The notes below the pieces were generated by a model. The model was not told the origin of the DNA and searched no databases. It saw only the letters and a list, made by a program, of their open reading frames with translations. 64,000 nt of DNA, taken from NCBI RefSeq assembly GCF_035581365.1, contig NZ_CP141590.1, forward strand, positions 1,550,001 to 1,614,000, written 5' to 3'. A program made the position numbers and the translations under genes. The stretch is from Tsuneonella sp. CC-YZS046. GTDB lineage: Bacteria; Pseudomonadota; Alphaproteobacteria; Sphingomonadales; Sphingomonadaceae. Shown in pieces: positions 986 through 9,772 of this stretch. Every line of letters begins with the position of its first letter. Position 1 is the first letter of the stretch.

Positions 986-2215
986 ATGTCCGAAATCCAG
1001 CGCTCAGAGATCAAGCGTGTCGTCCTCGCCTATTCCGGTGGCCTCGACACCAGCGTGATCCTCAAATGGCTGCAGGTCACCTACAATTGCGAGGTCGTGA
1101 CCTTCACCGCCGATCTCGGCCAGGGCGAGGAGCTGGAGCCGGCGCGCGCCAAGGCGCGGCTGATGGGCGTGCCCGATCAGCATATCTATATCGACGACCT
1201 GCGCGAGGAATTCGTGCGGGACTTCGTGTTCCCGATGATGCGCGCCAATGCGCGCTATGAAGGGGACTATCTGCTGGGCACCTCGATCGCCCGCCCGCTG
1301 ATTTCCAAGCGCCTGATCGAGATCGCGCGGGAAACCGGGGCGGATGCGATCGCCCATGGCGCGACCGGCAAGGGCAACGATCAGGTTCGCTTCGAATTGT
1401 CCGCCTATGCGCTCGATCCCGATATCCGCGTGATCGCGCCCTGGCGCGAATGGGAGCTGACGTCGCGCACCGCGCTGATCGCCTGGGCGGAGCAGCACCA
1501 GATTCCGGTGCCCAAGGACAAGCGCGGGGAAAGCCCGTTCTCTACCGACGCGAACCTTCTCCACACCTCGTCCGAAGGCAAGGTGCTGGAAGATCCGTGG
1601 GAAGAGACGCCGGACTACGTCTATTCGCGCACGGTCAATCCGGAAGACGCGCCCGACCAGCCGGAATATATCACGATCGACTTCGAAAAAGGCGACGGGG
1701 TTGCGCTGAACGGCAAGGCACTCAGCCCGGCCTCCCTGCTGACCGAACTGAACGAACTCGGCCGCAGGCACGGCATTGGCCGCCTCGATCTGGTGGAAAA
1801 CCGCTTCGTCGGCATGAAGAGCCGCGGGATGTATGAAACGCCGGGCGGCACGATCTATGCCGCCGCCCATCGCGGGATCGAGCAGATCACGCTGGATCGG
1901 GGCGCAGCGCATCTCAAGGACGAGCTGATGCCGCGCTATGCCGAGCTGATCTACAACGGCTTCTGGTTCGCGCCGGAGCGGGAGATGCTGCAGACCGCGA
2001 TCGACCACAGCCAGCAGAAGGTTTCCGGCACGGTCCGGCTGAAGCTCTACAAGGGCTCGGCCAGCGTGGTGGGCCGCAAGAGTGCGAACAGCCTCTATTC
2101 GGAACGGCACGTCACCTTCGAGGACGATGCCGGCGCATATGACCAGAAGGACGCCGAAGGCTTCATCAAGCTGAATGCATTGCGGCTGAAATTGCTGGCG
2201 CGGCGCGACCGATAA
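986..2215 (+). CDS. argG: Argininosuccinate synthase
   Basis: Condenses citrulline and aspartate with ATP to argininosuccinate, the penultimate step of arginine synthesis, in the cytoplasm. The 409-residue length is normal. The ATP pyrophosphatase P-loop AYSGGLDTS is at residues 15-23; further conserved stretches are [33 protein letters not shown] and [16 protein letters not shown]. The ATG at 986 starts the protein directly before the conserved beta strand and follows a purine-rich AGCTTTCC spacer; no earlier in-frame start is needed. argH is not adjacent, so arginine genes are dispersed here. A run of T residues follows about 80 bp downstream. Confidence 0.98.
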
Positions 2216-4236: not shown

Positions 4237-5379
4237 TCACAAGCCCCCGCCCGGCGGGCGCGGACCATCCGCCTTGTCGCGCCTCGCCTTGGGAAAGTGG
4301 GTCGCCATACCCATGCTGCCCTCGTTCCTTGGCGGATCGGCCGGCGCCGGACGGGATTTTGTCGAGGGAGGGGTTTCGACGCCGGCCTTACCCGAAAGAA
4401 TGGCATCCCCCCGCCCGCGTTCCCCCGCGCGCGACGGACCGGGGCGGGCAAGCGAGCAATCGCGCGGGCGGCGGGCGGCCCGTTGCGATGCGGCGGCAGG
4501 GCGAACGCACGCCGGTTCCGGCAGGGGGTGACAGGGTTGACACTGTTCAGGAGAAAAATTCTCCGCTGCGCGGGAATCCCCTGCCCCGGCCTGCGTCTCC
4601 TCCCCCATCGCATCCACGAAGGCGCAGGCTTCGGCATGATGCGCGTCCCATTCGGCCCCGGCTTCCTCCCGGGCGGCCTCGCCGGCCTCCGCCGCCAGCT
4701 CGAACGCCTGCTCCTCACCCAGCCCTTCCTCCAGCAGCGCCGCTTCCTCGTCCAGCTCGGTCCAGCGCCCGCGGTAATCCACCCATGCCTCGCGCGGAGT
4801 GGCAAGGCCCGGCACATGGCCATCCTCCGCGCCGGGCGCACGCTCCATCATGCCGGGATCGGGCGGATGGCCGCCCAGCATGGCCAGCAGCTCGTCGAAG
4901 CGCGCGGCGGCATCCTCCACCTCCGGCCGATCGCACAGCCGGTCGAGCCGCCCGAGATGGGCGAGGAGCAGGCGGCCGTCATAGCGGCGGCGGCGCGCCA
5001 CTTCCTCGCCGTGATAGAACACCGGCTCATCCACCCCGTTCAGCGCATGATCGGCCAGCACCGCCTCGGCATGGTCGCGGGCGAGCGCCAGCGCCGCATC
5101 CCAGGCGAGCGCGAAGGCCGCATCGCGCCGCCGCGCCTTGTAGGCGGTCTGCGGGGAGATCCGCGCCGCCTTGCAGGCGAGGCGGACATTGCCGCTGGCG
5201 GCAAGCCGGTCGCAAAACAGCAGGCGGCGGTCCGGGGTGAATTCACCCGCCCCTCCAGCAAAAGTGGGAACCGGTTTTGCGCCCGGGAGGGGCGGCAGAG
5301 ACTCCCCTCCAGCAAAAGTGGGAACGTCCCCCTCCAACGAAGCAGCGGAAACACGATGTATCGGGAATGGATCGAACAT
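4237..5379 (-). CDS. HTH-domain protein with repeat-derived N-terminus
   Basis: Unrecognised 380-residue protein. Residues about 50-105 form a helix-turn-helix region (LFCDRLAASGNVRLACKAAR, ISPQTAYKARRR, FALAWDAAL) like the DNA-binding part of phage terminase small subunits. A second HTH protein of the same style lies at 57018-57494. The N-terminus contains PTFAGG twice, encoded by a 22-bp DNA repeat. After an acidic Glu/Ala middle section the reading frame continues about 110 residues in proline/arginine-rich sequence that looks less protein-like, so the functional protein may effectively end near FSPEQCQPCHP. No start before 5379 is supported. Function unknown; domesticated phage packaging or DNA-binding origin is inference. 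Confidence 0.6.
   Translation of the reverse strand: MFDPFPIHRVSAASLEGDVPTFAGGESLPPLPGAKPVPTFAGGAGEFTPDRRLLFCDRLAASGNVRLACKAARISPQTAYKARRRDAAFALAWDAALALARDHAEAVLADHALNGVDEPVFYHGEEVARRRRYDGRLLLAHLGRLDRLCDRPEVEDAAARFDELLAMLGGHPPDPGMMERAPGAEDGHVPGLATPREAWVDYRGRWTELDEEAALLEEGLGEEQAFELAAEAGEAAREEAGAEWDAHHAEACAFVDAMGEETQAGAGDSRAAENFSPEQCQPCHPLPEPACVRPAAASQRAARRPRDCSLARPGPSRAGERGRGDAILSGKAGVETPPSTKSRPAPADPPRNEGSMGMATHFPKARRDKADGPRPPGGGL
4533..4553. repeat. Short direct repeat TGACA-GGGT-TGACA
   Basis: TGACAGGGTTGACACTG contains TGACA twice, 9 bp apart. On the minus strand it encodes EQCQPCHP in the HTH protein above. Similar short DNA motifs could be a preserved protein or DNA site; seen once in this window. 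Confidence 0.35.
5250..5325. repeat. Pair of identical 22-bp repeats with palindromic core
   Basis: CCCCTCCAGCAAAAGTGGGAAC occurs at 5250-5271 and again at 5304-5325, exactly 54 bp apart, so it stays in frame and encodes PTFAGG twice on the minus strand. The first copy continues into a short inverted repeat, GCAAAA (5258-5263) with TTTTGC (5275-5280). A third degenerate copy starts near 5329. It resembles the small intergenic palindromes common in alphaproteobacteria that end in ...CCGGTTCCCACTTTTGC. Confidence 0.75.
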
Positions 5380-5523
5380 GATTCACCTCCAGCCGAAAAT
5401 GGCGGCAAGATAGGTGCTGGGCACCGAGGGGAATCAAGGCATCTAGGTCAGGCGAGGGCCTGTAGGAAAATGATTACTGAATTAGGCCCAACTGATTTCC
5501 TGCTCTAACTTTGGGAGAAAGAT

Positions 5524-5841
5524 ATGGCCGGACGTATTCGTGAGCGCGATCTTGTAATTCCAGCACTACGCGCAGCCGTTAAGATGGGCGGTGAAATTCA
5601 CATGACCAAGTTGATTGATATGATGATTGATGAATTTGAGCCAGAAGGTGAAGATGCCCAAATTATTGAACATCGCAATGATAGCAAATTTAGCCAGAAG
5701 GTACGCAATCTAGTCTCTCATAGAGAGAACAGTACTAGCATATTCTCCCGGGGATATGCCATTTATATAGCTCAATCGGAATCTATTCGCATTACCGATT
5801 TAGGGCGGAAATTTCTCGATCAAGTTCCCGCAGATGAGTAG
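5524..5841 (+). CDS. Small winged-helix protein, Mrr N-terminal-like
   Basis: A 105-residue protein beginning MAGRIRERDLVIPALRAAV. The layout, HMTKLIDMMIDEF, then SKFSQKVRNLVSHRE, then FSRGYAIYI and the closing ITDLGRKFLDQV, matches the winged-helix N-terminal domain of Mrr-type restriction endonucleases (compare ITxxGRxxL). The nuclease domain is absent, so it would be a stand-alone DNA-binding or adaptor domain. Base composition is clearly more AT-rich than the neighbours, which suggests acquisition. TGGGAGAAAGAT gives a ribosome-binding site before the ATG. Its 3' end overlaps the convergent methyltransferase gene by 22 bp. Family assignment is by eye and moderate. Confidence 0.6.
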   Translation: MAGRIRERDLVIPALRAAVKMGGEIHMTKLIDMMIDEFEPEGEDAQIIEHRNDSKFSQKVRNLVSHRENSTSIFSRGYAIYIAQSESIRITDLGRKFLDQVPADE

Positions 5842-6425
5842 AGCGCCTTATAACCCGGCTTGAACCATTTCAGTTCTGTTCCGCTGGTCGCATCTTTATC
5901 CCAAACGAACCAAGCATAGGCGGTAGTGCCTGTACCCTTCTGTACAGCGCCTGCCGGATAGAATGTGATCCGCTCACTAAAAACCCATACACGCGACGGC
6001 GGCGCTTCCGAAAATATAGTGCGCTGCCGGTTTGCACCTTCAAGGAAGGCCAACCGCAAAAGTAACGCGAACTTTTTATCGGCTTTCTTTAAGCCGGCCT
6101 GCACGAAACCTTCTGCTGCATTATAAGGTGGATTAGTAATAATATTCGATGCCTTGCGCCAACTCTCAAGAAAATCGTGATCACCATCGCCATAGCCTCG
6201 ATCAACGAGATCCGAGCTAATGACTCTATTGCCAGTGGCTTCCAGCACCTCTGACATGGCTCCATCACCGCAAGCACACTCCCAAATATCACCGACGAAC
6301 TTCTCGTTATCGATGAGCGCGTAGGTTGCCCATGCGGGTGTAGGAAAGAAATCAGGACCGTCTAAATCAGCAAACCGCTTCATAGTCGGCTTGAACCCGC
6401 CGTTAAGGTGATATGTAGCATCCAT
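5820..6425 (-). CDS. Orphan DNA adenine methyltransferase-like protein
   Basis: A 201-residue class I SAM methyltransferase-like protein. The start of the fold is FFPTPAWATYAL; motif I is WECACGDGAMSEVL (about 48-61), the acidic strand end is VISSDLVDRGYG, and the catalytic motif IV NPPY is at residues 98-101, typical of N6-adenine or N4-cytosine DNA methyltransferases. No target recognition domain or restriction enzyme is visible. This compact form is common in phages and integrative elements. Codon and base use are AT-rich like the convergent neighbour. The ATG at 6425 lacks a clear ribosome-binding site; the ATG at 6383 is an alternative start. The sequence specificity cannot be read from sequence. 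Confidence 0.75.
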   Translation of the reverse strand: MDATYHLNGGFKPTMKRFADLDGPDFFPTPAWATYALIDNEKFVGDIWECACGDGAMSEVLEATGNRVISSDLVDRGYGDGDHDFLESWRKASNIITNPPYNAAEGFVQAGLKKADKKFALLLRLAFLEGANRQRTIFSEAPPSRVWVFSERITFYPAGAVQKGTGTTAYAWFVWDKDATSGTELKWFKPGYKALYSSAGT

Positions 6426-6508
6426 GATTATTAATTTATCAGAATCAATGGCTTAGTCAATATCATCTAAACGACTCTAACAATTCAATTTTCTGAAAAA
6501 TCTTTCAT

Positions 6509-6595
6509 CTACCGCCTCAGCAGCGGGCCGAGATAGCCGCCGGTAAAGCTGCGCGGGTTGGCCCCCACTTCCTCCGGCGCGCCTTCCGCCATCCC
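6509..6595 (-). pseudogene. Detached, diverged copy of the uvrA 3' end
   Basis: Read on the minus strand this gives [18 protein letters not shown] then LGPLLRR and TAG. The real UvrA ends [18 protein letters not shown] then LAPLLKR and TAA only 28 bp away. The two are clearly homologous at protein level but differ at many bases, so this is not a recent exact duplication. The fragment has no start or upstream coding sequence. It marks the junction with the AT-rich island at 5.4-6.5 kb. Confidence 0.8.
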
Positions 6596-6623
6596 GCCCG
6601 CGCAGGGGCAGGCTATCATTGCC

Positions 6624-9605
6624 TTAACGCTTGAGCAGGGGGGCGAGATAACCGCCCGTGAAGGAGCGTGGCTCTGCGGCGACATCTTCGGGAGTTCCCT
6701 CGGCAATGATCTCCCCGCCGCGCACGCCGCCTTCGGGGCCGAGGTCGATAATCCAGTCCGCCGTCTTGATGACGTCCAGATTGTGCTCGATCACCACCAC
6801 GGAATTGCCCTGATCGACCAGCCGCTGCAGCACTTCCAGCAGCTTGCGCACATCCTCGAAGTGAAGGCCGGTGGTCGGCTCGTCGAGGATATAGAGCGTC
6901 TGCCCGGTGGAGCGGCGGCTGAGTTCCTTGGCGAGCTTCACCCGCTGCGCTTCGCCCCCTGACAGGGTGGTGGCCTGCTGGCCGACCTTGACATAGCCGA
7001 GGCCGACTTCGTTCAGCATATGCATCTTGTCGCGGATCGGCGGCACCGCCTTGAAGAATTCCTCCGCGTCCTCGATCGTCATGTCGAGCACGTCGGCGAT
7101 GCTCATGCCCTTGAACTTCACTTCCAGCGTCTCGCGGTTGTAGCGCTTGCCGTGGCATTCCTCGCAGGTGACGTAGACATCGGGCAGGAAGTGCATCTCG
7201 ATCTTGATCAGCCCGTCGCCCTGGCAGGCCTCGCACCGCCCACCCTTCACATTGAAGCTGAACCGCCCCGGCTTGTAGCCGCGCGCCTCGCTCTCCGGCA
7301 GGGCGGCGAACCAGTCGCGGATATTGGTGAAGGCGCCGGTATAGGTGGCCGGGTTGCTGCGCGGGGTGCGGCCGATCGGCGACTGGTCGATCTCGATCAC
7401 CTTGTCGCAATATTCGAGGCCGGTGATCCGGTCATGCGCGCCGGCGATCACCCGCGCGCCGTTGAGCACGCGGGCGGCCCCGGCGTGCAGCGTGTCGATG
7501 GTGAAGCTGGACTTGCCGCTGCCCGAGACGCCGGTGACGCAGCAGAAGGTGCCGAGCGGGATGGCGGCGGTGACGTTGCGCAGATTGTTGGCGCGGGCGC
7601 CGTGGACGGTGATGTGGTGGCCGTTGCCCTTGCGCCGCTGCTTCGGCACTTCGATCTCGCGCGTGCCGTTGAGATAGGCGGCGGTCAGGCTGTCCCTGCT
7701 CTTGAGGATCTGCGCCAGCGTGCCCTGCGCCACCACCTGCCCGCCATGCACCCCCGCGCCCGGCCCCAGGTCCACGATATGGTCGGCGGCGCGGATCGCA
7801 TCCTCGTCATGCTCCACCACGATCACCGTGTTGCCGAGGTCGCGCAGGCGCTTGAGCGTTTCCAGCAGCCGGTCGTTGTCGCGCTGGTGGAGGCCGATGC
7901 TCGGCTCGTCCAGCACATAGAGCACGCCCGACAGCCCGCTGCCGATCTGGCTGGCAAGGCGGATGCGCTGGCTTTCCCCGCCCGACAGCGTGCCGCTGGT
8001 CCGGTCGAGATTGAGGTAGTCCAGCCCGACATTGTTGAGGAAGCCCAGCCGCTCGTTGATTTCCTTGAGGATGGCGCGGGCGATCTGGTTCTGCTGCTCG
8101 GTCAGCCTGCCGTCCAGCGTGGCGAAGAACGCCAGCGCGTCGGCCACCGACAGCTTGGTCGGCCCGGCGATGTCCTGCCCCGCCACCTTCACCGCCAGCG
8201 CCTTCTCGTTGAGGCGCTTGCCGCCGCAAGTCTCGCAGGGCTGCGCGGTCTGGTAGCGGGACAGCTCCTCCCGCATCCAGGCGCTGTCGGTCTGCAGCAT
8301 GCGGCGGTTGAGATTGCCGATCACGCCCTCGAACGGCTTCTGGACCGTGTAGCTCTTGCGCCCGTCCTTGAAGGTCAGTTCCACCGGCAGGCCGCCGGTG
8401 CCGTGCAGGATGATGGCACGCTGGTCCGGTTCCAGCGCGTTCCACGGCGTGGTCAGGTCGAAGCCATAGGCGCGGGCCAGGCTTTCCAGCACCTGCATGT
8501 AATAGGGCGACGGCGGGTTGGACTTGGCCCACGGCACCACCGCGCCCTGCTTGAGCGTCAGGTTCTCGTTCGGGACGACCAGCTGCGGGTCGAACAGCAG
8601 CTTCTCCCCCAGCCCGTCGCAGGCCGGGCAAGCGCCCTGCGGCGCGTTGAAGCTGAACAGGCGCGGCTCGATCTCCTCGATGGTGAAGCCGGAGACCGGG
8701 CAGGCGAACTTCTCGCTGAACACGATGCGGTTGGCGGGAATGCCGGCGCCTTTCATGGAACCGAGGGATTCCCCTTTTCCCGTTCGGGCTGAGCTTGTCG
8801 AAGCCCCGTCCTGCCCGTCCGAAGAAGAGGGCTGCCCTTCGACAGGCTCAGGGCGAGCGGAAGCAAGAGCCTCCGCCACAGTCCCATCCGCCAGATCGAC
8901 ATAGGCCAGCCCTTCCGCCAGCCTCAGCGCCTGCTCGAAGGAATCCGCCAGCCGCGTCTCGATCCCTTCGCGCACGGCGAGGCGATCGACCACCACTTCG
9001 ATGTCGTGCTTGTATTTCTTGTCGAGCGCGGGCGCTTCCTCGATCGGGTAGATTTCCCCGTCGATCCGCACGCGGGTGAAGCCGGCCTTCTGCCATTCCG
9101 CCAGCTCCTTGCGGTATTCGCCCTTGCGGCCGCGCACCACCGGGGCGAGCAGGTAGAGCCGCGTCCCTTCCGGCAGGGCCATCACCCGGTCCACCATCTG
9201 GCTGACCGTCTGCGCCGCGATCGGCAGGCCGGTGGCGGGCGAATAAGGCACGCCCACCCGCGCCCACAGCAGGCGCATGTAGTCGTAGATCTCCGTCACC
9301 GTCGCCACGGTGGAACGCGGATTGCGGCTGGTCGTCTTCTGTTCGATGGAAATGGCGGGGCTGAGGCCGTCGATATGCTCGACATCCGGCTTCTGCATCA
9401 TCTCCAGGAACTGACGCGCATAGGCCGAAAGCGATTCCACATAGCGCCGCTGCCCCTCCGCATAGATGGTGTCGAAGGCGAGGCTGGACTTGCCCGAGCC
9501 GCTCAGGCCGGTGATGACGATCAGCGCATCGCGCGGCAGGTCTATGTCGATGCCCTTGAGATTGTGCTCCCGGGCGCCGCGGACGGAAATGGTGGTGAGG
9601 GACAT
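6624..9605 (-). CDS. uvrA: Excinuclease ABC subunit A
   Basis: The damage-recognition ATPase of nucleotide excision repair; a dimer loads UvrB on lesions. Both ABC modules are present: Walker [13 protein letters not shown] near the N-terminus and [13 protein letters not shown] in the second half, signatures [11 protein letters not shown] and [11 protein letters not shown], and Walker [10 protein letters not shown] and ILDEPTTGL. Zinc-binding CETCGGKRL and the CEACQGDG...CEECHGKRY finger are intact; the first pair FACPVSG lacks the second Cys. The start is placed at the ATG giving [15 protein letters not shown] (993 aa); longer frames add non-conserved residues. Residues about 248-276 (ARPEPVEG ... 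STSSARTG) are an in-frame insertion of a palindromic repeat. Confidence 0.97.
8780..8860. repeat. REP-like palindromic element inside uvrA
   Basis: Arms CCGTTCGGGCTGAGCTTGTC (continuing GAAG to 8803) and CTTCGACAGGCTCAGGGCGA (8837-8856, continuing GCGG) are near-perfect inverted repeats separated by 33 bp. The sequence matches the style of the dispersed TTCGACAGGCTCAG / CTGAGCTTGTCGAA palindromes found in many sphingomonad and other proteobacterial genomes. It is translated in frame within UvrA without stop codons. Confidence 0.88.
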
Positions 9606-9772
9606 GGGCGGGATGTGGAGGCTCGTGTGGCGAGAGTCCAGAGGCGCCCTCATGGCGCGCCCTGGATCGCCATTTGTTCCTTAAATGTTCGCAATGGTCA
9701 AGTGGGCACGGCGATCTTTTCGTCACCCCCGGCTTGGTATAGCTTCCGATATTCCAACAGGAGGATTCCGCC

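Follow-up and report, generated by a model that had tools for sequence, protein, structure and literature searches.

A uvrA-flanked defence hotspot of Sphingomonadaceae whose displaced gene ends may be scars of recombination

The hotspots cDHS1 and cDHS2 of Pseudomonas aeruginosa carry variable anti-phage genes between core genes, have a lower GC content and show no single evident mobilising element, according to the part of the describing paper used here (PMC10250203). That part states as open how cassettes are taken up or swapped without an evident mobilising enzyme, and it expects homologous transfer to leave no scars (PMC10250203). In the type VI clusters of Vibrio, sequential displacement with leftover gene ends is explained, in the portion of the work cited here, by homology-facilitated illegitimate recombination: one side is anchored by homology, the other is not, and the former 3' part is retained farther downstream (PMC5361080). 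Tyrosine-integrase islands at the 3' ends of genes also combine a working gene end with a displaced one of the same orientation, as outlined in the relevant parts of the reports on Islander (PMC4383910) and on SGI1-type islands (PMC8409611).

The site described here, located between uvrA and an HTH gene, is a core-gene-flanked defence hotspot of Sphingomonadaceae and thus of a known kind. It differs from cDHS1 and cDHS2, as far as the cited part of that paper describes them, in its size (one or a few genes and a median uvrA-to-HTH stretch of 2.7 kb, against a median of 26 kb), in having no tRNA gene in the window analysed, and in the recurrent displaced ends of its border gene (PMC10250203). 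A tRNA-type attachment site was set aside on the same ground. The Vibrio clusters are reported, in the portion cited, to keep whole orphan immunity genes, whereas the uvrA site keeps the short end of a housekeeping gene, often at a hairpin, beside defence cargo (PMC5361080). Unlike the integrase islands as presented in the cited parts of those reports, the uvrA site has no integrase that we could find, its cargo does not lie between the two ends, and its crossover point is not fixed (PMC4383910, PMC8409611). Among the titles and abstract openings covered by our search, which extended to neither preprints nor most subscription papers, there was no report of a uvrA-flanked defence hotspot or of the gene pair described below. 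The recurrent displaced ends of the border gene are an unusual feature for a core-gene-flanked defence hotspot, and the site also has this conserved gene pair.

The window, i.e. the whole stretch of 64,000 nucleotides analysed (Tsuneonella sp. CC-YZS046, NZ_CP141590.1, positions 1,550,001 to 1,614,000), belongs to a one-contig genome of 3.35 Mb. Its features at the site are as follows, numbered from the first letter of the window.

986..2215, plus strand: conserved neighbour gene beyond the HTH gene, an open frame; similar frames lie beyond the HTH gene in several relatives.
4237..5379, minus strand: HTH gene with a terminase-small-like domain (PHROG 4044, E 2.2e-19), 380 aa, GC-rich; right border of the hotspot.
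5400..6508, no strand: AT-rich islet, the cargo of the hotspot in the window.
5524..5841, plus strand: winged-helix protein of 105 aa, Mrr_N-like family, convergent partner of the methyltransferase.
5820..6425, minus strand: DNA methyltransferase gene, phage type, 201 aa (PHROG 799 DNA methyltransferase, E 7.9e-60; NPPY motif).
6509..6592, minus strand: second uvrA 3' end, diverged and in frame, of 27 codons and a TAG stop.
6593..6613, minus strand: degenerate hairpin-like 21-mer that lies 10 bp past the uvrA stop and is followed by the second end; the sole exact copy in the genome.
6624..9653, minus strand: uvrA with its working 3' end, which forms the left border of the hotspot; an open frame of 1009 aa that matches the uvrA of relatives at 68-88% DNA identity.

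The gene at 986..2215 is presumably argG-like, a name that we assigned from its sequence.

An earlier note on this DNA had claimed that the uvrA terminus is doubled near the end of the gene, and a search of the window's own flank confirmed this. The second end is in frame and identical to the true end in 20 of 27 residues (74%, E 1.4e-11); it occupies flank positions 32-112, i.e. window positions 6592-6512, and has its own TAG at 6511-6509. The note had placed 29 codons at 6509-6595 after a gap of 28 bp, which was essentially right, as we measured 27 codons plus the stop at 6509-6592 and a gap of 31 bp from the true uvrA stop. At the DNA level, the significant match between the two ends was 76.6% over 47 nt. 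The GC content at third codon positions (GC3) was 0.63 in the working tail, 0.85 in the second copy and 0.89 in the whole gene. The typical GC3 of the copy and the low value of the working tail fit a displaced native copy, although a drop in GC3 is general among uvrA tails (median 0.08), with the window in rank 8 of 107. The second copy may be the displaced native end. G001, a 67% complete genome and the only congener of the window among those searched, showed no uvrA match. Separately, an in-frame part of uvrA at about 8740-8900 has inverted repeat-like sequence and a low GC3 (as little as 0.58 in 26-codon windows); it resembles a palindromic repeat inserted in a coding region.

The islet of about 1.1 kb agreed with the earlier description of an AT-richer stretch with two genes (5820-6425 on the minus and 5524-5841 on the plus strand). 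The GC content of 400-bp windows from 5401 to 6600 was 45.5-50.7%, against 62-74% in the neighbouring windows except for two transitional ones at 56%. Positions 5524-6486 were 74% identical at the DNA level to a stretch of G235 that lies in another chromosomal context, between two other genes. These are presumably ispE-like and Sua5-like, judging by their sequences. No uvrA piece was present in the 15.6 kb around the G235 stretch, and in the four closest loci the gene pair occurred without a uvrA end. Because of its base composition and because its closest relatives occupy other chromosomal contexts, the islet is considered to be foreign.

The uvrA flanks of the window and 106 relatives were compared (n = 107). 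The 106 comprised 26 of the 29 relatives with loci from the uvrA DNA match and the first 80 of 102 places chosen among the matches listed; G011, G021 and G026 were left out for their short contigs, as were places near contig ends and the lower end of the uvrA match list. In 13 of 249 genomes there was no uvrA match at the cut-off, and these were dropped. With uvrA on one side of every flank by construction, an HTH homologue followed on the other side in 68 of the 107, always on the strand of uvrA and 634-4487 bp past the uvrA stop; on the opposite strand there was none in any of the 107. The stretch between uvrA and the HTH gene had a median GC content 11 points under that of the uvrA 3' part, and was more than 5 points under it in 61 of the 68. 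At least one 600-bp tile more than 12 GC points under uvrA was found in 61 of the 68 flanks with the HTH gene versus 13 of 38 without it. The cargo after uvrA differs between related genomes, and the AT-rich cargo is missing in some relatives, e.g. L055. The comparison of uvrA 3' flanks that the earlier note had proposed thus revealed a differing downstream content; the arrangement recurs with different fragments and different cargo, and the base composition does change across it.

Among 20 selected neighbourhoods of other paralogues of the HTH gene, clearly AT-rich tiles were found nearby in L351, L353, L355 and L356, which may be additional hotspots with a gene of this family as their marker, and weaker ones in L343 and L344. 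With four clear and two weaker cases among the 20, the paralogues were set aside as general hotspot markers.

The cargo is rich in anti-phage genes. Cargo ORFs were called mechanically (at least 120 aa, less than 60% GC), which gave 102 proteins from 63 of the 67 relatives' flanks with the HTH gene, and 74 frames beyond the HTH gene served as controls. At E <= 1e-10, the cargo ORFs matched 312 PADLOC models, versus 3 models and at most 6 proteins for the controls, a contrast that the model counts overstate because the models are redundant. In a random draw of 30 islands from the 55 that had not been scanned singly before, the longest protein matched PADLOC at this threshold in 12 (5, 5 and 2 per batch) and had no PADLOC match in 18. 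Of the first eight islands scanned, four had a match at the same threshold (L052, L054, L057 and L063). Examples from the random draw are a fused PARIS protein, a DRT reverse transcriptase, a retron RT-Toprim, a Septu-like ATPase, DarG, a bSEFIR protein, dCTPase-type proteins and a type II methyltransferase. Pfam families above their cut-offs were NACHT, KAP, GmrSD with HEPN, Mrr_cat, DUF4062 and a deaminase, while DndB was sub-threshold.

Second uvrA 3' ends recur in the family. On the sense strand, they were detected in 25 of the 107 flanks at E <= 1e-3 with any uvrA of the family as the query, and in 23 with the genome's own uvrA; the same search detected none on the antisense strand. L145, with a hairpin and a copy in a short flank, was not counted among the 25. 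In a matched test with one setting for all genes and four flanks under 1.5 kb excluded, a downstream copy of the gene's own 3' end was present in 23 of 103 uvrA flanks versus 2 of 420 other genes (Fisher p 1.4e-15, a value limited by the relatedness of the genomes, as the copy events are not independent). By HTH gene, copies occurred in 20 of the 68 flanks with a detected one and in 5 of the 39 without. The copy begins 8-74 bp after the uvrA stop in 18 flanks, 218 bp after it in one, and 0.34-2.0 kb after it in six. Its first codon differs between flanks, from about 20 to at least 70 codons before the end (the query was 70 codons long), and in 21 of the 25 copies the alignment ends no more than 8 residues from the query's end. 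Among the control genes, part of the 3' end recurred downstream in two, L213 6267-8004 (E 3e-7) and L210 5946-6492 (E 3e-5).

A restored gene end next to a displaced one, both pointing the same way, is the classic trace of site-specific integration, a general statement that the cited part of the Islander report makes as well (PMC4383910). The second ends could accordingly be remnants of an integrative element that entered the uvrA 3' end, supplied a new end and later lost its integrase and most of its body, and the 0.34-2.0 kb between the ends in six flanks, with small genes in L074, look as if part of such an element remained. The arrangement speaks against this explanation, which we judge unlikely. 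The cargo lies outside both ends, the gap is at most 74 bp in 18 of the 25 flanks (31 bp in the window) and too short for a gene, and the copies start at many codons rather than at one crossover point; across species, variable crossovers without a recombinase are already seen in part. The gene pair, moreover, moves without uvrA. The earlier note had found no integrase, and we likewise found none among the window ORFs as read or the five window proteins scanned; neither an integrase nor a transposase was among the 25 commonest of the 50 Pfam families from the 102 cargo proteins. The note's integrative element, at least of the usual kind, was thus not upheld.

L074 carries small genes in the gap that separates the uvrA stop from the displaced end, with HEPN and GmrSD cargo after that end, a layout that stacking would predict. 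As a separate observation, the gap between the uvrA stop and the second end contains a frame for a similar small protein in both L074 and L160, possibly a second, stacked cassette. The L074 gap also has a frame that we take to be DUF433-like.

A hairpin is present at many of the junctions. The 21-mer of the window matches the 24-bp hairpins of relatives in place and sequence, and is too degenerate for a strict hairpin finder. A palindrome motif no more than 100 bp past the stop was found in 16 of the 19 flanks whose copy lies no farther than 260 bp away versus 13 of the 82 without a copy, a count that leans towards the claim because the motif list was drawn up after the junctions had been inspected. 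No motif was found near the copy in L057, L099, L120, L128, L144, L160 and L163; in L054 the hairpin lies inside the copy, and the motif screen near the copy did not detect it.

Perfect-stem, CCTG-led hairpins numbered 16 in 15 flanks, and uvrA sequence directly follows 11 of the 16. The hairpin core is a dispersed low-copy repeat, with 1-38 matches per genome at no more than one mismatch in 12 relatives, and in G207 it occurs only at uvrA. Both findings would be expected if a mobile palindromic repeat of REP-like kind had been inserted after uvrA and had driven the duplication, with the defence cargo incidental. We consider this distinctly improbable. Some copies have no such motif, and the full form of the hairpin (1-11 matches per genome in the 13 genomes searched, many of them not palindromic) stands at the uvrA junction in eight of 12 relatives, all with a copy, and is otherwise rare. 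In the window genome, the exact core is absent (there are three one-mismatch matches), the hairpin 23-mer is absent at up to 3 mismatches, and no Y1_Tnp transposase, the REP-associated kind, was found. With the 21-mer unique in addition, a genome-wide repeat family in the window genome was set aside.

Comparison with congeners suggested which of the two ends is native in a few genomes. The extra end of G231 was 78-83% identical to the working ends of three congeners, against 64-68% for its own working end, and the latter was 91% identical to the working end of G079, which belongs to another genus. G079 showed a pattern like that of G231, and G104 points in the same direction. Judged by these identities, the extra end of G231 and G079 appears to be of the native type and the working end a newcomer. 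The earlier idea that an incoming element supplies or displaces an end of uvrA holds in these two genomes for this reason. The direction was not uniform. The extra end of G135 is native-like relative to one of two congeners; the working end is nearer to congeners in G191 and G214 and, relative to some congeners, in G015 and G241; and several other genomes tie.

These assignments also bear on an old tandem duplication of the uvrA end in the family ancestor, with copies eroded to differing lengths and the turnover of cargo unrelated. L096, L116 and L123, from three genera, have an identical short spacer, hairpin and copy start, L145 from a fourth genus has the same hairpin and copy start, and in some genomes the copy and the genome's own end are alike (L074 0.94, L110 0.89, L160 0.87), all of which an ancestral duplication would explain. 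Several copies, however, are open to the stop and well conserved (that of L134 has 91% protein identity to a congener's end), which is unlikely for ancient junk. The newcomer end is common to G231 and G079 across genera, and copies are commoner in AT-rich flanks than in the others (23 of 74 versus 2 of 32). An ancestral duplication is hence a poor candidate in our estimation.

We therefore lean, with somewhat more belief than doubt, towards a uvrA-HTH defence hotspot that is refreshed by recombination anchored in uvrA, the displaced gene ends being its scars. The cassettes, short and mostly AT-rich, would contain one or a few genes each, many of these being anti-phage genes, and would replace or join one another at the site. 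Incoming DNA would undergo homologous recombination inside uvrA on one side, and the other side would be joined without long homology, often at the hairpin after the incoming uvrA stop. The working uvrA would then carry the newcomer's codons at its end, and the old, cut-off uvrA end would stay behind, followed by the resident cargo. Phage selection would favour the exchange of cargo. The one-sided recombination is itself deduced from the resulting arrangements; neither a donor molecule nor a single event was observed. Such one-sided displacement at uvrA resembles the one proposed for the Vibrio effector loci (PMC5361080) and would supply scars of a kind not anticipated in the cited part of the paper on the P. 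aeruginosa hotspots (PMC10250203). Since the scars lie in the border gene itself in about a quarter of the sampled genomes, the sequence could tell in which order and direction the cassettes arrived. The uvrA site is also a place to seek undescribed anti-phage genes, first of all the methyltransferase/Mrr_N-like pair.

The methyltransferase gene and the 105-aa gene are arranged tail to tail with an overlap of 22 nt. Against Pfam Dam, the methyltransferase scored only E 0.004, below the family cut-off. The 105-aa protein itself had no Mrr_N match, whereas 19 of 32 members of its family matched the domain at E <= 0.1 in the same profile search (best 4.6e-11). AlphaFold2 modelled it as a confident winged helix (pLDDT 90.6). 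In a fold search against solved structures, winged-helix proteins ranked high, none at E <= 0.001. The 105-aa protein has one winged-helix fold and no match to a nuclease family, and neither islet protein of the window matched PADLOC.

The pair is conserved well beyond the window. Of 84 loci, 80 from the genome collection and four from the window's family, 80 have the small gene within 400 bp past the end of the methyltransferase gene and always convergent with it. L078 and L079 duplicate L171 and L172, which leaves 78 of 82 distinct loci. Three of the remaining four loci have no partner (L199 ends at the methyltransferase), and one has its partner 3 kb off. On viral contigs, the pair was present in 7 of the 80 kept, and among the matches listed most of the others had more distant methyltransferases. 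Like restriction-modification and Mrr-type systems, the pair sets an adenine-type DNA methyltransferase beside an Mrr_N-like winged-helix protein, but it differs from them in the 105-aa partner showing no nuclease domain, in the convergent order and in matching nothing in PADLOC. The pair is a candidate for an undescribed defence system, and the neighbouring cargo of the hotspot suggests that the window cassette may serve in defence.

A broader proposal, which we put forward tentatively and with much more doubt than belief, is that the uvrA tail and hairpin form a reusable, recombinase-free docking site, that the displaced ends are a readable record of arrivals, and that the window pair, with its nuclease-free Mrr_N-like partner and convergent order, is an undescribed anti-phage system. 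If each arriving cassette had its anchor in uvrA and its breakpoint at the hairpin, the displaced ends would record past arrivals.

Two further observations concern the partner gene. In L172, L175, L178 and L181, the partners are only 22-24% identical to that of the window, while the methyltransferases there are 80-88% identical; the partner varies or is swapped far faster than the methyltransferase, as a recognition part might. A longer Mrr_N-like partner of 219-252 aa, with an extra N-terminal region, occurs in L080, L081, L180, L186, L191, L192, L193, L200, L240 and L242.
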